64,000 nucleotides of DNA, taken from NCBI RefSeq assembly GCF_025642135.1, contig NZ_CP106793.1:2215001-2279000 (forward strand), read 5' to 3'. Below the pieces are notes generated by a model. The model saw only the letters and a program-made list of their open reading frames with translations. It made no database searches and was not told the DNA's origin. This DNA is from Streptomyces cynarae. Lineage in GTDB: Bacteria; Actinomycetota; Actinomycetes; Streptomycetales; Streptomycetaceae. A program made the translations under genes and the position numbers. Below, in pieces: positions 30,460-35,863 of the stretch; position 1 is the stretch's first letter; each line of letters starts with the position of its first letter.

Positions 30460-31476
30460 CTAGAAGAGCGCGCTGTACGCGTTCAGCGCGGGTTGTCCGC
30501 CCAGGTGGGCATAGAGGACGGTGGAGTCCCGACCGATCTCCCCGCGCGAGACCAGATCGACGAGCCCGGCCATCGACTTCCCCTCGTAGACGGGATCGGT
30601 GACCATCCCCTCCGTGCGTGCGGCGAGCCGCATCGCCTCCAGCGTCCTCTCGTCGGGGATGCCGTAGGTACCCGCGTGGTACCGCTCGTCCAACTCGACG
30701 TCCGCCTCCGTCAACTCCTTCTCCACACCGATGAGCTCTCCGGTGGCGCGGGCGATCCTGGCGATCTGCTCCCGTGTGCGGGTGGGCTCCGCGGACGCGT
30801 CGATGCCGATCACACGGCGCGGACGCCCGCCCGCCTCCTCCAGCGCGCGGAACCCGGCGATCATGCCGGCCTGGGTGGAGCCCGTCACGGAACACACGAT
30901 CACGGTGTCGAAGAAGACGCCCGACTCCCGCTCCTGCTCGGCGACCTCGTACGCCCAGTTCGCGAATCCGAGGCCGCCGAGCGGGTGGTCGGAGGCACCG
31001 GCCGGGATGGCGTACGGCTTGCCGCCCGCCTCCTCGACCTCCCGCAGCGCCTGCTCCCAGCTCTCCTTGAATCCGATCCCGAACCCGGCCCTGACCAGCC
31101 GAACGTCGGCCCCGGCGAGCCGGCTGACGAGGATGTTGCCGACCTTGTCGTACACGGAGTCGGGCCAGTCCACCCAACTCTCCTGGACCAGCACGCACTT
31201 GAGTCCTACGTGGGCGGCGACCGCGGCGACCTGCCGGGTGTGGTTGGACTGCACCCCGCCGATCGAGACCAGCGTGTCGCAGCCCTGCGCGAGCGCGTCG
31301 GCGACGAGGTACTCCAGCTTGCGGGTCTTATTCCCGCCGTACGCGATGCCGGAGTTGCAGTCCTCCCGCTTGGCCCACACGGAGGCACCGCCGAGGTGGG
31401 CGGTGAGCCGCTGAAGCGGGTGGACCGGGGAGGGCCCGAAGAGCAGGGGGAAACGCTCGTACGTGGACAGGGACAT
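30460..31476 (-). CDS. acdS: 1-aminocyclopropane-1-carboxylate deaminase
   Basis: 338 residues, the standard length. The sequence follows known AcdS proteins almost throughout: [35 protein letters not shown] (PLP-binding Lys), [31 protein letters not shown] (phosphate loop), [11 protein letters not shown] and a C-terminal [12 protein letters not shown]. It opens the cyclopropane ring of ACC, the plant ethylene precursor, to 2-oxobutyrate and ammonia, letting soil bacteria use plant ACC as nitrogen. GGGAGG lies 4 nt upstream of the ATG. A GntR regulator gene ends 14 bp upstream on the same strand. D-cysteine desulfhydrase is the related alternative, but the whole-length pattern favours AcdS. 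Confidence 0.92.
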
Positions 31477-31490
31477 GGGACCTCCCGGGA

Positions 31491-32162
31491 TCAGCGGGCC
31501 TCTTCGTCGGTTCGGTCGGTTTCGTCGGCCAGGTCTGCGAGAGTGCGCCAGATCTCCGCGGTGACGTGAACCGCCCCGTCCACGTCACCGTCCGCACAGG
31601 CCTCGATGAGCCGCTCGTGCAGCCCGGCGGATCGGCAAGTGCCGCCCTCGCCGAAGCGCCGGCGCTCCAGGCGGCGGATGAGCGGCATGCAGCGGGCGAT
31701 GGTGGCGGCGGCCGCTCGATTGCCGCAGACCCGGACCAGCACGTCGTGCAACTCGTCGTCGGCGCGCAGGGCGGCGTCCACGTCACCGGCGCGTACGGCA
31801 CCCGCGAACCGCTCGTTGGCCGCGCGCATCTCCGCCACGTCCGCTGCCCGCAACCGGGGCACGGCGACCCTCGTGGCCAGCTCGTGCATGGCGCCCACGA
31901 CGGCCGCCGCGTCCCGTACGTCGTCGGCGACGACCGGGGTCACCCGCGTGTAGCTCTGCGGCTTGCTCTCCAGCAGCCCCTCGTCCACGAGCCGCGAGAA
32001 AGCCTCCCGCACGGGCGCCCGCGACAGCCCGAGCCGCTCGGCGAACTCGGTGTCGCGCACCACCGCCCCGGGTTCGATCTCCCCGGCCACGATGGCGTCC
32101 CGGATGGCTTCGTAGGCACGGTCCCGCAGCAGGGTGCGGGGCACGGGTCGAAGGGCCTCCAT
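31491..32162 (-). CDS. GntR-family (FCD) regulator, probably of acdS
   Basis: 223 residues. Winged helix: [49 protein letters not shown]. The helical FCD domain follows, with [17 protein letters not shown] as the metal/ligand element. It lies 14 bp upstream of acdS on the same strand and is probably co-transcribed. In Streptomyces and relatives acdS is often beside a GntR regulator. A TGTT-N7-AACA site (32172-32186) directly upstream is a candidate autoregulatory operator. Confidence 0.9.
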
Positions 32163-32251: not shown

Positions 32252-33838
32252 TCAGACCTCCGCCCACGGCCAGTCGGCGTCCCGGGCGGCTTCCAGCAGC
32301 GGCACCATCCGGAAGGCCGCGTCCGACAGGCCGCCGAAGGTGTGCCTGTTGCCCGTCCCGGACGGGCCGTGGCCCACCCGGTATCCGGCCAGGTTCCAGG
32401 TGTAGACCGGAATGTGCGCCGGGACCTGCCCGGTCGGGTCGCCGTGCCCGTTGTAGCCGTACTGCTCGTCGGTGACGATCAGCACCCGGTCCTGCCCCCG
32501 GTAGTGCGAGCGGATCGCGCTGGTGGTGTCGGTACCGCCCAGGTCGCCGAAGCGGCCGAGGACCTTCAGCACCGACTCGCCCTTGCGGAACCTCAGCCGC
32601 TTGCTGGTCGTGCCGAACTCGACGAGATCCGCGTCCGCCGCCCGCAGCGCGAGCGCCGTACCGAAGATCGCCGCCGCGTCGGCACGGTTCAGCTCGGAGC
32701 GGTCCGACAGCCGGGAGTAGAACATCGAACCCGATCGGTCCACGAGCACCAGCGTGCGTCCGGGCAGCGCGGGCACGTTGGCCAGCGAGTGGCCGAGCGC
32801 CTGCTCCAGCGGGTACGACCAGCGCAGCGACGGCGCGTGCTGGTGGGCGGCGAGGTAGCGGAACGGGAACTGCCGCGACCGCTTGACCTCCGCCGGGTCG
32901 CCGAGGCGCGCGGCGACCTGGGCAGCCACCTCGTCGGACACACCGGCCTCGTCGAAGTTCCGCAGGTTCCTCACCAGTGCCATCTGGCCCATCGACGGGA
33001 TCACGGCCTCCCAGGCCGCCTTGTCCATCGGGCCCTGGAGCCAGCCCGCCAGCGCCTCCCAGGTGATGCCTGCGGCGGCCAGCCGCTCGGCGCCGCCGGG
33101 AGCCGTGACGACCGCCCGGCGCTCGGCGACCGGCAGCGCCATCAGCTCACGGTGCGCGCCGAGCACGGGGATCGAGACGGGTGGAACGGCGGCATCCGGG
33201 TTGTGCCGGCGGTCCAGCGCGTACTGGAACAGGTCGCCCTGCCACGGCTTGCCGGGGTCCGGCGCGGCGTGCACCAGGTTGAGGATGTCGCCGAAGCGGT
33301 AGCCCTTCGATGCGGTGTCGTACTTCAGCAGTGCCTTGCCGGTGTAGAGGCGTCGTACGGCGTCGGCGACACCACGCTTGACGGGCTTGGGGACGGCGCG
33401 GCCGTATGTGGCCGTCCAGTACGCGAGCAGCTCGCCGGGCTCGTCGGGGCGCCGCAGCACGCAGTCCACGACCTGCCGGTTCGAGGGACCGTCGACCGCG
33501 CACGCGTCGAGCCGTGCCTTCACGTACTCGGCGGCGCCCACGAGGGACGCCGTGCGCAGGTTGCCCTCGCCACGGAGCCAGCCGAGCAGGCCGGCGGTCC
33601 ACGAGGGGTCGGTGACGGCGAGTTCGCGTACGAGCGCGGCGAACCGGTCGTCGCGGTCCGTGCCGGTCTCGTAGAAGGTCTGCTGCGACACGAAGTTCGA
33701 GACCGCGAGCAGAAAAAGTTCGGAGCGCGCGTCGCGCTCTCGGCCACGGCCGCCCTCGTACGTGCGGAGCACGCGGCCGGTGGAGGTGACGCGCGAAGTG
33801 GGCTGCGCGCGGGCGGTTCTGGTGTTGAATCGCGCCAT
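32252..33838 (-). CDS. rsr: TROVE-domain protein, bacterial Ro60 (Rsr)
   Basis: 528 residues from the ATG at 33836-33838, preceded by GGGGGAA. Residues about 15-350 form the TROVE HEAT-like ring (ELFLLAVSNFVSQQTFYE, LVGAAEYVKARLD, MGQMALVRNLRNFDEAGV). The C-terminal third is a von Willebrand A domain with an intact MIDAS: VDRSGSMF (DxSxS), GGTDTTSAI and IVTDEQYGYN. Ro60 proteins bind noncoding Y RNAs and misfolded RNAs and, in bacteria, can tether exonucleases. The gene follows directly on three Y-RNA-like genes (33874-34279) on the same strand. Confidence 0.93.
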   Translation of the reverse strand: MARFNTRTARAQPTSRVTSTGRVLRTYEGGRGRERDARSELFLLAVSNFVSQQTFYETGTDRDDRFAALVRELAVTDPSWTAGLLGWLRGEGNLRTASLVGAAEYVKARLDACAVDGPSNRQVVDCVLRRPDEPGELLAYWTATYGRAVPKPVKRGVADAVRRLYTGKALLKYDTASKGYRFGDILNLVHAAPDPGKPWQGDLFQYALDRRHNPDAAVPPVSIPVLGAHRELMALPVAERRAVVTAPGGAERLAAAGITWEALAGWLQGPMDKAAWEAVIPSMGQMALVRNLRNFDEAGVSDEVAAQVAARLGDPAEVKRSRQFPFRYLAAHQHAPSLRWSYPLEQALGHSLANVPALPGRTLVLVDRSGSMFYSRLSDRSELNRADAAAIFGTALALRAADADLVEFGTTSKRLRFRKGESVLKVLGRFGDLGGTDTTSAIRSHYRGQDRVLIVTDEQYGYNGHGDPTGQVPAHIPVYTWNLAGYRVGHGPSGTGNRHTFGGLSDAAFRMVPLLEAARDADWPWAEV

Positions 33839-33873: not shown

Positions 33874-34035
33874 GAGGCGCAGAAAGGAGGGTGTCCGAGA
33901 TCAGGGATCGGCGACGGGACTGTAACCTGGCGCGTCTTCCAGTTCCGCCACATCGGCCCGGAGCCGATGACGGGATTCGAACCCGCACCAATTTCTTGAC
34001 CAGGTCCCTGAAGTATCCGCTGCCTGCGCACCGGG
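33874..34035 (-). ncRNA. Y-RNA-like RNA C with circularly permuted tRNA-like domain (YrlA type)
   Basis: Reading the minus strand: a 5' repeat (34010-34035), then a T-arm (33970-33986, GCGGG stem with loop TTCGAAT), then CATCGGC-TCCGG-GCCGATG (33951-33969), a 7-bp acceptor-like stem closed by a 5-nt loop, then a Leu-type D-arm (33929-33950). The order T-arm, closed acceptor stem, D-arm is a permuted tRNA, as known for YrlA Y RNAs. Outer ends pair as GCGCAG/CTGCGC (34022-34030 region with 33877-33882). It ends 35 nt before rsr. It is not a normal tRNA, because the acceptor stem has no free 3' end. Confidence 0.75.
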
Positions 34036-34125
34036 CATCCACCATGTGCTGCGCCTCCCGAGATCAAGTCGGCGGCGGCATCGGATTCTTTGGAGAGAAG
34101 AAGTAGCCGCAGCCCGCGCACCGGG
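34036..34125 (-). ncRNA. Possible short Y-RNA-like RNA B (no tRNA-like domain)
   Basis: It starts with a 26-bp repeat (34100-34125) that matches the 5' ends of RNAs A and C (23 of 26 identical to C), but no TTCGA T-arm follows. Its 5' GTGC-GCG can pair with GCGC-A-GCAC near the 3' end, leaving a one-base bulge, as in a Ro-binding stem. About 90 nt, the size of a classic Y RNA. It is supported mainly by the repeat and its position between two better candidates. Confidence 0.45.
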
Positions 34126-34279
34126 AGGTGCGTGAAGTTGTGGTGTCCAGAGATCGAGGTCGGCGGAACCGACGTTGGTGCTCTGCCCCTGAGCTACACC
34201 GGCCTGTTGTACCGGTGGCGGGACTCGAACCCGCGGCCGCCCCATTATCAGTGGAAGTAGGTCCTGCCTTCGCACCTGG
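34122..34279 (-). ncRNA. Y-RNA-like RNA A with circularly permuted tRNA-like domain (YrlA type)
   Basis: On the minus strand: AGGTGCG-AAG (34268-34277) pairs with CTT-CA-CGCACCT (34126-34137), a bulged helix like the Ro-binding stem. Inside it are a T-arm (34218-34234, GCGGG/CCCGC with loop TTCGAGT), CACCGGT-ACAACAG-GCCGGTG (34197-34217), an acceptor-like stem closed by a 7-nt loop, and a D-arm (34180-34194, GCTC-AGGGGCA-GAGC). The permuted order matches RNA C. A -10-like TAGAGT at 34289-34294 would start transcription near 34281, at the predicted 5' end. Confidence 0.78.
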
Positions 34280-34288
34280 ACGTGCATC

Positions 34289-34294
34289 ACTCTA
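34289..34294 (-). promoter_or_regulatory. -10-like element for the Y RNA cassette
   Basis: TAGAGT on the minus strand lies about 9 nt before the predicted 5' end of RNA A. No good -35 element is visible. Confidence 0.4.
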
Positions 34295-34349: not shown

Positions 34350-35795
34350 TCAGTCGCGCTTCTGCCGCTTCCAGGGCCCCGTGACGGCCAGCATGATGCC
34401 GGGCTCCTGGATGTTGGCGTACAGGGTCCTGCCGTCGGGCGAGAAGGTGACGCCGGTGAATTCGCTGTACTCCGGCTCGTCCTCGGTGCCGATGTTCAGT
34501 TCGTTGCGGGCGATGGGGTACGTGCGGCCGCTGTCGGTGGCGCCGAAGAGGTGCTGGACGCCCTCGCCGTCCTCGGCGATGACCAGGCCGCCGTACGGCG
34601 AGACGGTGATGTTGTCGGGGCCGTCGAAGCCGCCGTCCTCGGCCGGGTCGGGGTTCACCCCGAGCAGGACCTTCAGGGTGAGGGTGCGGCGCTTCGGGTC
34701 GTAGAACCAGACCTGGCCGTCATGTTGGACGGGGCTCTCCTCGCGTGCGTAGGAGGACACGATGTAGGCGCCGCCGTCGCCCCACCACATGCCCTCGAGC
34801 TTGCGGGCGCGGGTGACCTGGCCGTCGGTGAACTGCTTGCGGATCGAGGTCGTCTTGGCGTCGCGGTCGGGGACGGTCACCCAGTCGACGCCGTACACCG
34901 TGCCGATCTTCGTGGCGCGGGACAGGTCGTCGACGAACTTGCCGCCGGAGTCGAAGCACTTGAAGGCCTGCAGCACGCCCGCTTCGTCCGCGAGGGTACG
35001 CAGCTTGCCGCGGCCGTGCTTGAAGCCCTCCGGCGGGGTCCACCGGTAGAGCAGGCCGTTCGGGCCGGACGCGTCCTCCGTCAGGTACAGGTGGCCGCGC
35101 TTGGGGTCGACCACGACGGCCTCGTGGGCGTAGCGGCCGAGGGCCTTGATGGGCTTGGGGCCGCGGTTGGCGCGGCGGTCCTCGGGGTCGACCTCGAAGA
35201 CGTACCCGTGGTCCTTGGTCATGCCGTTCTGGCCGGCCTTGTCCTCGGTCTCCTCGCAGGTCAGCCAGGTCCCCCAGGGGGTGTTGCCACCGGCGCAGTT
35301 GGTGGAGGTGCCGGCGATGCCGACCCACTCGGCGACATGGTCTTGGCGGACCTCGACGACGGTGCAGCCGCCGGACGCGGCCGGGTCGTAGACGAGGCCC
35401 TCGGTGAGCGGTACCGGGTACTTCCACTGGGAGCGGGGGCCCTTGAGCTCGTGGTTGTTGACGAGGAGGGTGGCGCCGCGGGGGCCGGTGAAGGTGGAGG
35501 TGCCGTCGTGGTTGGACGGGGTGAACTCGCCGGACTCCAGCTTGGTCCTGCCGCTGTAGGTGATGACGCGGTACGAGAACCCGGCGGGCAGGGCGAGGAT
35601 GCCGTCAGGGTCGGGGACCAGCGGCCCGTAGCCGACTCCGCCGTGCGCGCCGGCCGCTTCCGCGCCTTCGCTGTCGGTCTCCGTGGAGGCAAGGGCGTTG
35701 GGAGCGGTGGCGAGGGCGCCGACGCTGCCCGCCAGTGCGACTCCGGCACCGGTGATCGCGGATTTTCTGGCGAAGTCCCTGCGGGTGAGCGACAT
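34350..35795 (-). CDS. PhoX-like secreted alkaline phosphatase (DUF839)
   Basis: 481 residues from the ATG at 35793-35795, with AGGAG 5 nt upstream. SLTRRDFARKSAITGAG is a Tat signal. The mature part has PhoX/DUF839 beta-propeller markers: YSGRTKLESGEFTPSNHDG, LVNNHE, AGGNTPWGTWLTCEET (calcium-iron site region), LGRYAHEAVVVDP, and SPYGGLVIAEDGEG near the end. PhoX enzymes are calcium/iron-dependent monoesterases exported by Tat. A PHO box 69 bp upstream supports induction under phosphate limitation. It is monocistronic. Confidence 0.87.
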   Translation of the reverse strand: MSLTRRDFARKSAITGAGVALAGSVGALATAPNALASTETDSEGAEAAGAHGGVGYGPLVPDPDGILALPAGFSYRVITYSGRTKLESGEFTPSNHDGTSTFTGPRGATLLVNNHELKGPRSQWKYPVPLTEGLVYDPAASGGCTVVEVRQDHVAEWVGIAGTSTNCAGGNTPWGTWLTCEETEDKAGQNGMTKDHGYVFEVDPEDRRANRGPKPIKALGRYAHEAVVVDPKRGHLYLTEDASGPNGLLYRWTPPEGFKHGRGKLRTLADEAGVLQAFKCFDSGGKFVDDLSRATKIGTVYGVDWVTVPDRDAKTTSIRKQFTDGQVTRARKLEGMWWGDGGAYIVSSYAREESPVQHDGQVWFYDPKRRTLTLKVLLGVNPDPAEDGGFDGPDNITVSPYGGLVIAEDGEGVQHLFGATDSGRTYPIARNELNIGTEDEPEYSEFTGVTFSPDGRTLYANIQEPGIMLAVTGPWKRQKRD

Positions 35796-35863
35796 GGTGT
35801 CTCCTGTGACGGTGGGCGTGCCGTGGAGGGTGGCGGACCTCGGGTCGGCGAAACAGTCGCGCC

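Follow-up and report, generated by a model that had tools for sequence, protein, structure and literature searches.

YrlA-type Y RNAs of bacteria have been described as circular permutations of a tRNA (PMC11472068). According to PMC8394870 and PMC7790460 the basal stem of a bacterial Y RNA binds the Ro60 orthologue Rsr, while the tRNA-like domain is a binding partner of PNPase and a substrate of DusA and TruB. The function of Rsr and Y RNA in bacteria is stated in PMC7790460 to have been studied only in Deinococcus, from which the roles are mainly known, and the Salmonella operon is said there to respond to damaged tRNAs. The DNA analyzed here bears on what the tRNA-like end of a Y RNA is for. 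We analyzed a stretch of 64,000 nucleotides (nt) from Streptomyces cynarae (contig NZ_CP106793.1, positions 2,215,001 to 2,279,000), hereafter the window, where a gene for a TROVE/Ro60 orthologue (rsr) is preceded by an array of Y-RNA-like units.

Upstream of rsr, which was found by profile search to be the sole TROVE match in its genome, three co-directional Y-RNA-like units are located on the minus strand in the order A, B, and C. The rsr start lies 51 nt downstream of the end of unit C, and this gap is 47–94 nt in the relatives measured. It is probable that the three are bacterial Y RNA genes serving the adjacent Ro60, with units A and C carrying permuted tRNA bodies and unit B carrying none. 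The structure of the permuted tRNA bodies is well supported by sequence comparison; from it we infer partners and purpose, and suggest that Ro60 proteins display specific tRNA look-alikes. An earlier note on this DNA had proposed two permuted units. Both are present, with edges at 34145-34281 (A) and 33890-34039 (C) instead of 34122-34279 and 33874-34035. The proposed order of T-arm, acceptor-like stem, and D-arm was confirmed, with T-loops TTCGAGT and TTCGAAT, stems of 7 base pairs (bp), and joining loops of 7 and 5 nt. Unit B (34054-34128), the anticodon arm of A (34240-34256), and the anticodon stem and variable arm of C had been missed.

The array was compared with relatives in three samples. 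Close arrays (n=81) are the window plus the best 80 of 266 matching Streptomyces rsr loci, all found through Rsr. The genus sample covers 199 Streptomyces genomes, of which 95 had a TROVE gene, giving 103 loci partly from the same genomes as the close arrays. From viruses and plasmids 131 loci were fetched, of which six were without usable upstream sequence and 125 were kept (five of them identical copies). Identical sequences were removed before alignment, leaving 51 of 58 A units, 68 of 70 long B units, and 77 of 79 C units; 11 mini B units were excluded.

Unit A appears to be a whole class I tRNA body circularly permuted at position 26/27 with its anticodon arm kept. A 5/5-bp anticodon stem (best of three offsets) with a 7-nt loop was found in 111 of 118 Streptomyces A loci, and a 5-nt variable loop follows the arm in 112. 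Four of the seven exceptions are modules without a D-arm (L216, L217, L248, and L286). The anticodon stem has compensatory variants: UUCCA/UGGGG in 100 loci, UUCGA/UCGGG in six, UUCCG/CGGGG in three, and UUCGU/ACGGG in one. When the parts were restored to tRNA order, ARAGORN called a tRNA for 78 of 78 distinct A modules and for 0 of 78 shuffled ones, the unit of the window being called tRNA-Ile(GAU); in native order a tRNA was called in 15 of the 78 upstream regions.

The variation of unit A is concentrated in the anticodon. Of 60 positions in 112 aligned Streptomyces A loci, position 35 (1.13 bits of entropy) and position 34 (1.10) were the most variable, narrowly above position 72 (1.06). 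Changes were counted on a FastTree tree of 142 Rsr proteins, from which proteins outside 480–600 residues, below 74% identity, with a match start after residue 10, or identical to another had been dropped. Among the 15 positions counted over 100 rows, 34 and 35 changed most often (28 and 23 times), followed by 47 (18), 59 (15), and 72 (14). Loop positions 32, 33, 36, and 38 were close to frozen, with 0, 0, 1, and 0 changes, and position 37 changed 11 times. The resulting "anticodons" in Streptomyces include CAU, GAU, CUU, GUU, and GCU among others, nearly all with U36. A loop fixed as U36-A37-A38, the site of t6A37, was considered and rejected as a general rule: U36 is found in 110 and A38 in 112 of the 112 loci, but C37 occurs in 10 of 112 and G36 in viral modules, so that such a site is a possibility.

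Two loci upstream of a divergent Rsr (54–57% identity; L216 and L248) have an A unit with a T-arm, a long acceptor hairpin, and no D-arm, resembling a minihelix, and then a unit without a module. L217 and L286 were typed alike by the detector only.

Unit C appears from its sequence to be a permuted body of class II that resembles tRNA-Leu and has both an anticodon stem and a variable arm. Its anticodon stem CCUGG/CCAGG is formed by the two flanks of the module, the permutation having opened the body in the anticodon loop. Among the tRNAs of the same genome, as called by ARAGORN at the tRNA places, only tRNA-Leu(CAG), (GAG), and (TAG) share the D-arm pattern of unit C. The comparison of D-arms bears out the assignment in the earlier note of an elongator-type D-arm to A and a Leu-type D-arm to C. 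The 79 C modules divide into 38 Leu-type and 41 elongator-type, and two arrays have no C module and keep A (L002 and L038). The S. violaceoruber record L066 combines unit A with a Leu-type C. The variable region of Leu-type modules was 11–19 nt in 49 of 59 parsed loci (33 distinct); three lengths (L005, L020, and L276) were set by hand. As the search for elongator-type variable loops covered 4–6 nt only, the fair comparison is the spacing, free of any length limit, between the CTTC motif and the T-stem, which was 13–19 nt in 81 of 81 measured elongator-type loci vs. 20–28 nt in 49 and 15–17 nt in 10 Leu-type loci, with 11 loci unmatched.

The hairpin of the variable arm is kept despite turnover of its sequence in the 33 distinct long variable regions. 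Its five stem pairs form in 97.7% of cases in the 26 regions that are long enough, vs. 75.1% (maximum 83.1%) with partners swapped, and the mean fold energy of the long regions is -6.4 vs. -1.7 kcal/mol in shuffles. ARAGORN called a tRNA for every de-permuted C module supplied with a borrowed loop (56 of 56 of class I, 47 of 47 of class II) and for none of the shuffles. The identity elements of leucine tRNA in E. coli include A15-U48, G18G19, A20a, and A73, as listed in PMC9976931. Leu-type modules have A15-U48 in 47 of 47 distinct cases and A as the second base after GG in 47 of 48; A73 was found in 0 of 48. Over 107 distinct C modules the base after the acceptor is U in 69, C in 36, and A and G in one each. 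Six loci (L211, L251, L258, L263, L281, and L287) have a unit C acceptor stem shortened to about 5–6 bp, as judged by eye, with T- and D-arms otherwise normal.

Covariation was assessed on the 77 distinct C units, which had been selected through motifs at their flanks, with no regard to pairing. Of the cells of the named structure, 93.0% pair vs. 90.2% after shuffling, and the covariation score is 0.166 vs. 0.105 (reached in 0 of 500 shuffles). Three of five measures exceeded all 500 shuffles; the number of pairs with double change was reached in 56 of them and that of further pair types in 77. Pairs switch between A-U and G-C and between U-A, C-G, and G-C in the acceptor, between C-G and U-A in the outer stem, and between U-A and G-C in the D-stem, and RNAalifold recovered the outer, T, acceptor, and D stems unaided. 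The covariation of the acceptor-like stem across relatives that the earlier note had looked to was accordingly found in unit C, and the element is conserved upstream of rsr. The anticodon-stem columns of C pair in only 56%, these columns being misaligned between the two C types.

The bases that make tertiary contacts in a tRNA are kept as well. For the Levitt pair 15-48, 179 of 180 distinct Streptomyces modules have G-C or A-U (mostly G-C in A and mostly A-U in C), as do 101 of 104 distinct viral and plasmid modules, for which independence of the two positions would predict 59; the pair was no selection criterion, and the Fisher p of 1e-25 is no true probability since the sequences are related. 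A14 is found in 180 of 180 and the D-loop GG in 179 of 180 Streptomyces modules. As 15-48, A14, and GG are the contacts holding the tRNA elbow, it is very likely, on the grounds of sequence, that the permuted RNAs fold as tRNA.

Table 1. Features of the array and of rsr in the window, in minus-strand order; subfeatures of A and C follow tRNA numbering where given.
Feature	Position in window	Strand	Remarks
Candidate -10-like hexamer TAGAGT	34289..34294	-	7 nt before first base of unit A
Unit A, Y-RNA-like gene	34145..34281	-	outer stem GUCCAG/CUGGAC; inner stem GGCAGGACC/GGUUCCGCC, fourth pair mismatched; putative class I permuted tRNA domain
Unit A anticodon arm UUCCA-CUGAUAA-UGGGG (tRNA 27-43)	34240..34256	-	also in minimum free energy fold
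Unit A "anticodon" GAU (34-36)	34247..34249	-	U36 in 110/112
Unit A variable loop CGGCC (44-48)	34235..34239	-	C48 matches G15 (Levitt pair)
Unit A T-arm, T-loop TTCGAGT	34218..34234	-	tRNA-numbered reading
Unit A acceptor 3' strand	34211..34217	-	7-bp stem CACCGGU/GCCGGUG, one G-U
Unit A joining loop ACAACAG, acceptor 3' to acceptor 5' strand	34204..34210	-	7 nt
Unit A acceptor 5' strand	34197..34203	-	
Unit A D-arm, elongator type	34180..34194	-	closest own-genome D-arm: tRNA-Arg(CCT)
Unit B, Y-RNA-like, no tRNA domain	34054..34128	-	outer stem CCUCCCG/CGGGAGG; inner stem GGCUGCGGC/GCCGCCGCC, fourth pair mismatched; hairpin
Unit C, Y-RNA-like gene with putative class II (tRNA-Leu-like) permuted domain	33890..34039	-	module in 79/81 arrays
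Unit C anticodon-stem 3' strand CCUGG (39-43)	34000..34004	-	
Unit C variable arm UCAAGAAAUUGGU	33987..33999	-	13 nt; -0.2 kcal/mol, GAAA loop
Unit C T-arm, T-loop TTCGAAT	33970..33986	-	
Unit C acceptor 3' strand	33963..33969	-	7-bp stem CAUCGGC/GCCGAUG, fully complementary
Unit C joining loop TCCGG	33958..33962	-	5 nt
Unit C acceptor 5' strand	33951..33957	-	
Unit C D-arm, Leu type GCGGAACUGGAAGACGC	33932..33948	-	
Unit C anticodon-stem 5' strand CCAGG (27-31)	33926..33930	-	
rsr, TROVE/Ro60 orthologue	32252..33838	-	528 residues; PF05731 match 56 bits vs. cut-off 23

The units share a common design, as seen by eye: the outer stem is followed by GGUGCG (5' side) and, in most cases, GANCUC (3' side), and then come an inner stem and UACUUC. 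The inner stem has 9 bp with a mismatch at the fourth pair, and 8 bp in unit C. The 5' and 3' sides of the basal stem are base-paired, the outer stem covarying in C, the inner stem covarying in B, and the outer stem being invariant in A. Unit B was present in all 81 close arrays and unit A in 58.

The -10-like TAGAGT reported in the earlier note is present, and its spacing is kept across arrays that begin with unit A: TANRGT starts 13 nt upstream of the unit in 57 of 58 such arrays and 14 nt upstream in the remaining one, the hexamer being TANAGT in 55. Where unit B comes first, TANAGT was found 21–23 nt from unit B in 18 of 23 arrays. Judging by this spacing, the first base of unit A is likely to be the start site, and units A, B, and C may be transcribed from one promoter.

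Unit B occurs in the 81 arrays in a long form (70 arrays, 73–79 nt) and a mini form (11 arrays, a hairpin of 31–36 nt). In the 68 distinct long B units, likewise not selected for pairing, six pairs show double changes, compared to 2.4 after shuffling (reached in 0 of 500), and no module of T-arm, acceptor, and D-arm was found in unit B. A second Rsr paralogue, 66–72% identical to that of the window, is encoded at 13 loci (L187-L192, L194-L196, L200, L201, L203, and L207). The detector of permuted modules found no module at any of the 13, and in L188 and L195 a single B-like unit without a tRNA body lies upstream.

Ro60 genes of actinophages and other phages were found to have similar multi-unit arrays upstream. 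At least one permuted module with a UACUUC-like motif was present in 87 of the 125 viral and plasmid loci. The detector found 120 modules upstream of rsr; an equal amount of coding-side sequence and the reverse strand gave 0 each, and block shuffles gave a mean of 0.2. An anticodon arm, defined by 4 of 5 bp or better, U33, and a variable loop of 4–5 nt, was found in 58 of 104 distinct modules vs. a mean of 3.8 (maximum 10) in shuffles; a purine at 37 is present in 56 of the 58 and A38 in 53, neither of which was required. Among the 46 modules without the arm, 19 form a full long-range anticodon stem vs. 2.6 (maximum 7) with partners swapped, compared to 5 vs. 1.1 (maximum 3) among the 58 with the arm. 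Two layouts therefore exist, and the window holds one of each. The anticodons of viral Ro60 loci cover a wide range, including G36, and class II D-arm modules were also found in two contigs (L324 and L325), one kind having a variable-arm-like hairpin by eye.

An alignment of 50 anticodon-bearing modules (seven Streptomyces A modules including that of the window, and 43 from viruses and plasmids, 14 of 57 with odd spacing having been dropped by hand) pairs in 95.5% of cells vs. 74.7% after shuffling, with double changes in 17 of 22 pairs and all measures above all 500 shuffles. Most of the stems were a requirement of the detector by which this set was picked; the 15-48 pair was not, and it forms in 50 of 50. 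The covariation of unit A draws its strength from this viral set and from the stem variants across Streptomyces loci.

Some Y RNA units are annotated as tRNA genes, namely as tRNA-Ser(gct) in phage Alone3 (L293:1274-1347) and as tRNA-Arg(tct) in phage VanLee (L296:1204-1275), and ARAGORN likewise calls several phage Y RNA units tRNAs. In Streptomyces phage Kela an annotated RNA ligase gene (L299:729-1481) separates the Y RNA units from the Ro-like gene.

The composition of the array turns over within Streptomyces. In the genus sample 50 of the 103 loci have two T-arm modules, 36 have one, and 17 have none. The earlier note had regarded two tRNA mimics beside one Ro60 gene as unusual. This did not hold up, since two T-arm modules are found in 55 of 80 and 50 of 103 Streptomyces loci (overlapping samples) and two or more modules in 24 of the 125 viral and plasmid loci. 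On the Rsr tree unit C changes type between class I and Leu-like 25 times (12 independent pairs are on starred branches), and unit A is gained or lost 20 times; recombination of the locus would inflate such counts. The sisters L009 and L053 differ in C type and have long B units one base apart, so that C is exchangeable alone. An association of Leu-type C with the presence of unit A (45 of 51 vs. 47 of 80 tree rows) was not significant in independent pairs and was discarded. The proposal that every array keeps at least one tRNA module was likewise given up; it is true of 81 of 81 close arrays and fails in the genus sample.

Units A and C are the sole matches, with expectation values up to 1, of a covariance model of the permuted module (R1) in the window, at 78.9 and 31.1 bits; the model was built from 50 sequences, unit A among them. 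As a counter of presence R1 was rejected, as 23 of 24 matches in the own genome overlap tRNA genes and all 296 genomes of the phylum were matched. The Rfam YrlA model (RF02553), which the earlier note had named as a check, was not accepted as proof either; it also matches a tandem tRNA-Asn pair, and it gave matches below its cut-off in 7 of 14 control genomes. That pair (G000:C1:2877368-2877480) scores 41.3 bits, above unit A, and is a trap for YrlA searches.

Several observations weigh against reading A and C as Y RNAs with permuted tRNA bodies. Against the Rfam gathering score of 69 bits unit A reaches 33.4 and unit C 18, so that they are not filed as RF02553. R1 also matches tandem tRNA genes, one of them at 82.9 bits and thus above unit A. 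The fold energy of the single sequences is ordinary (z of -0.68 and 0.05 vs. shuffles). Covariation within the 51 distinct A units is thin, with 99.8% of cells paired, one pair with double changes, and nearly all pairs invariant. In the window the outer stem of unit C has two mismatches and its variable arm is weak, and the variable region of Leu-type C is merely 6 nt in 10 of the 59 parsed loci. In 38 of the 125 viral and plasmid loci the detector found no motif-bearing module. Of the 17 genus loci without a module, 13 belong to the second Rsr paralogue; the tRNA domain is not indispensable at every rsr.

The permuted bodies could be genuine circularly permuted tRNA genes that are processed and re-ligated into working tRNAs. 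The complete cloverleaf of de-permuted unit A and the A that follows the acceptor in 66 of 86 distinct A modules are in agreement with this. We nevertheless consider it very improbable, as the bodies sit within a Y-type stem for which B and C show covariation, lack CCA, and are joined in the window by loops of only 7 and 5 nt, as unit C is without an anticodon loop of its own, and as the units are found with Ro60. The genome moreover already has an ordinary tRNA-Ile(GAU) and five distinct tRNA-Leu, and between related species the anticodon is frequently altered. Another reading, that the bodies arose by chance or are what is left of decayed tandem tRNA genes, is favored by the fact that permuted models match tandem tRNA pairs too. 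This we hold to be even less probable: the acceptor 3' strand covaries with the downstream strand, the controls of the detector were empty, the stems and the 15-48 pair are kept over species and phages, and ARAGORN found 0 tRNAs in the window. The last result also speaks against the canonical, unpermuted tRNA that the earlier note had set against its own reading. The co-directional placement and the short gap to rsr would suit an array acting mainly as the rsr mRNA leader, by which Rsr regulates its own synthesis. That role is compatible with Y RNA genes serving Ro60; as the main explanation it is improbable, since it leaves the tRNA identity elements, the promoter at unit A, and the presence of three units unexplained.

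A further possibility concerns purpose. The tRNA bodies, and above all the anticodon arm of A, may be decoys that bait tRNA-cleaving toxins or the anticodon nucleases of phage or host, the changes at 34 and 35 and the swaps of C reflecting an arms race. Such a role of the YrlA tRNA-like domain, as a competitive inhibitor of anticodon nuclease, is suggested in PMC7790460. It is of the predicted roles the best fit to the variable anticodon, with 34 and 35 changing freely between nearly fixed 32, 33, 36, and 38; the repeated type switches of unit C, for example between L009 and L053, the many anticodons of phage Ro60 arrays, and the RNA ligase gene adjoining the Ro60 gene of phage Kela point the same way. 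On the other side U36 is almost fixed in Streptomyces, which confines the variation to NNU anticodons; the neutral-looking positions 47, 59, and 72 also change often, which may indicate relaxed constraint; and the counts come from a FastTree tree with 38 of 139 inner branches starred and are open to inflation by recombination. We regard the decoy role as possible and rather doubtful. Slightly more doubtful is its wider form, in which the Ro60 particles of bacteria and phages would display whole permuted tRNA replicas with selected identities and with the anticodon arm, their anticodons diversifying and their class switching between I and Leu-like II as if in an arms race with nucleases that attack tRNA, making Y RNAs exchangeable decoys and more than tethers for PNPase.

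If the array consists of Y RNA genes serving Ro60, Rsr would bind the stem common to the units, as known for other bacterial Y RNAs, and the tRNA body would be the effector end, through which tRNA-recognising proteins (PNPase, tRNA-modifying enzymes, or tRNA-attacking nucleases) could engage the Rsr particle. With two identities, one of them including an anticodon, a single Rsr might address different tRNA-directed partners, and the array would serve to present, bound to Rsr, tRNA bodies of selected identity. If these RNAs do mimic particular tRNAs as far as the anticodon arm, their partners would have to be proteins able to read such features. Exchanging anticodon letters, or class I for class II bodies, would test this directly. 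For annotation, tRNA genes listed near Ro60 genes, above all in phages, include Y RNA units mistaken for tRNA genes.

A gene with a twin-arginine-like signal, judged by eye, ends about 70 bp upstream of the array (34350-35798, minus strand). An NCBIfam search of this gene gave no match, and its 3' end precedes the array in most of 28 loci inspected by eye. Downstream of rsr lie a gene for 1-aminocyclopropane-1-carboxylate deaminase (30460-31476; TIGR01274, 560.8 bits) and beside it a gene for a GntR-like regulator (31491-32162), both on the minus strand; the matches of the regulator are under the curated cut-offs.

The kind of RNA found here is known, as it resembles YrlA (RF02553; Salmonella YrlA, PDB 6CU1) in its place beside rsr, its basal stem, and its permuted T-arm, short-looped acceptor, and D-arm. 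The RF02553 consensus also builds its anticodon stem from two flanks, as unit C does. It differs in having no anticodon hairpin, which unit A has, and the account in PMC8394870 describes D, T, and acceptor arms only, to which unit A adds an anticodon arm. Unit C differs further by its class II form with a variable arm, and both units score under the Rfam cut-off. The literature searched, which did not extend to the key primary YrlA papers, described no Y RNA with an anticodon arm or of class II form, and these variants of the known kind may be new. The rsr-yrlBA-rtcBA operon of Salmonella, as presented in PMC7790460, likewise combines a Ro60 orthologue with more than one Y RNA, whereas the S. 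cynarae array has three units. Phage Y RNAs with Ro-like proteins share the multi-unit arrays upstream of rsr, the UACUUC-like motif, and modules both with and without an anticodon arm; they differ in their wider range of anticodons and in that some units are annotated as tRNAs. Compared to ordinary tRNAs, unit C shares with tRNA-Leu of class II the D-arm GGCGGAA..AGACGC, A15-U48, G18G19, and a variable arm, and unit A shares with tRNAs of NNU anticodon the loop C32 U33 NN U36 A37 A38, while the order of parts differs and the units are without CCA. In the circularly permuted tRNA genes of some algae the 3' half precedes the 5' half, and the transcripts are processed and re-ligated to working tRNAs. 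Units A and C of the S. cynarae array likewise have the 3' half first, but are set in a Y stem with no sign of processing to tRNA.

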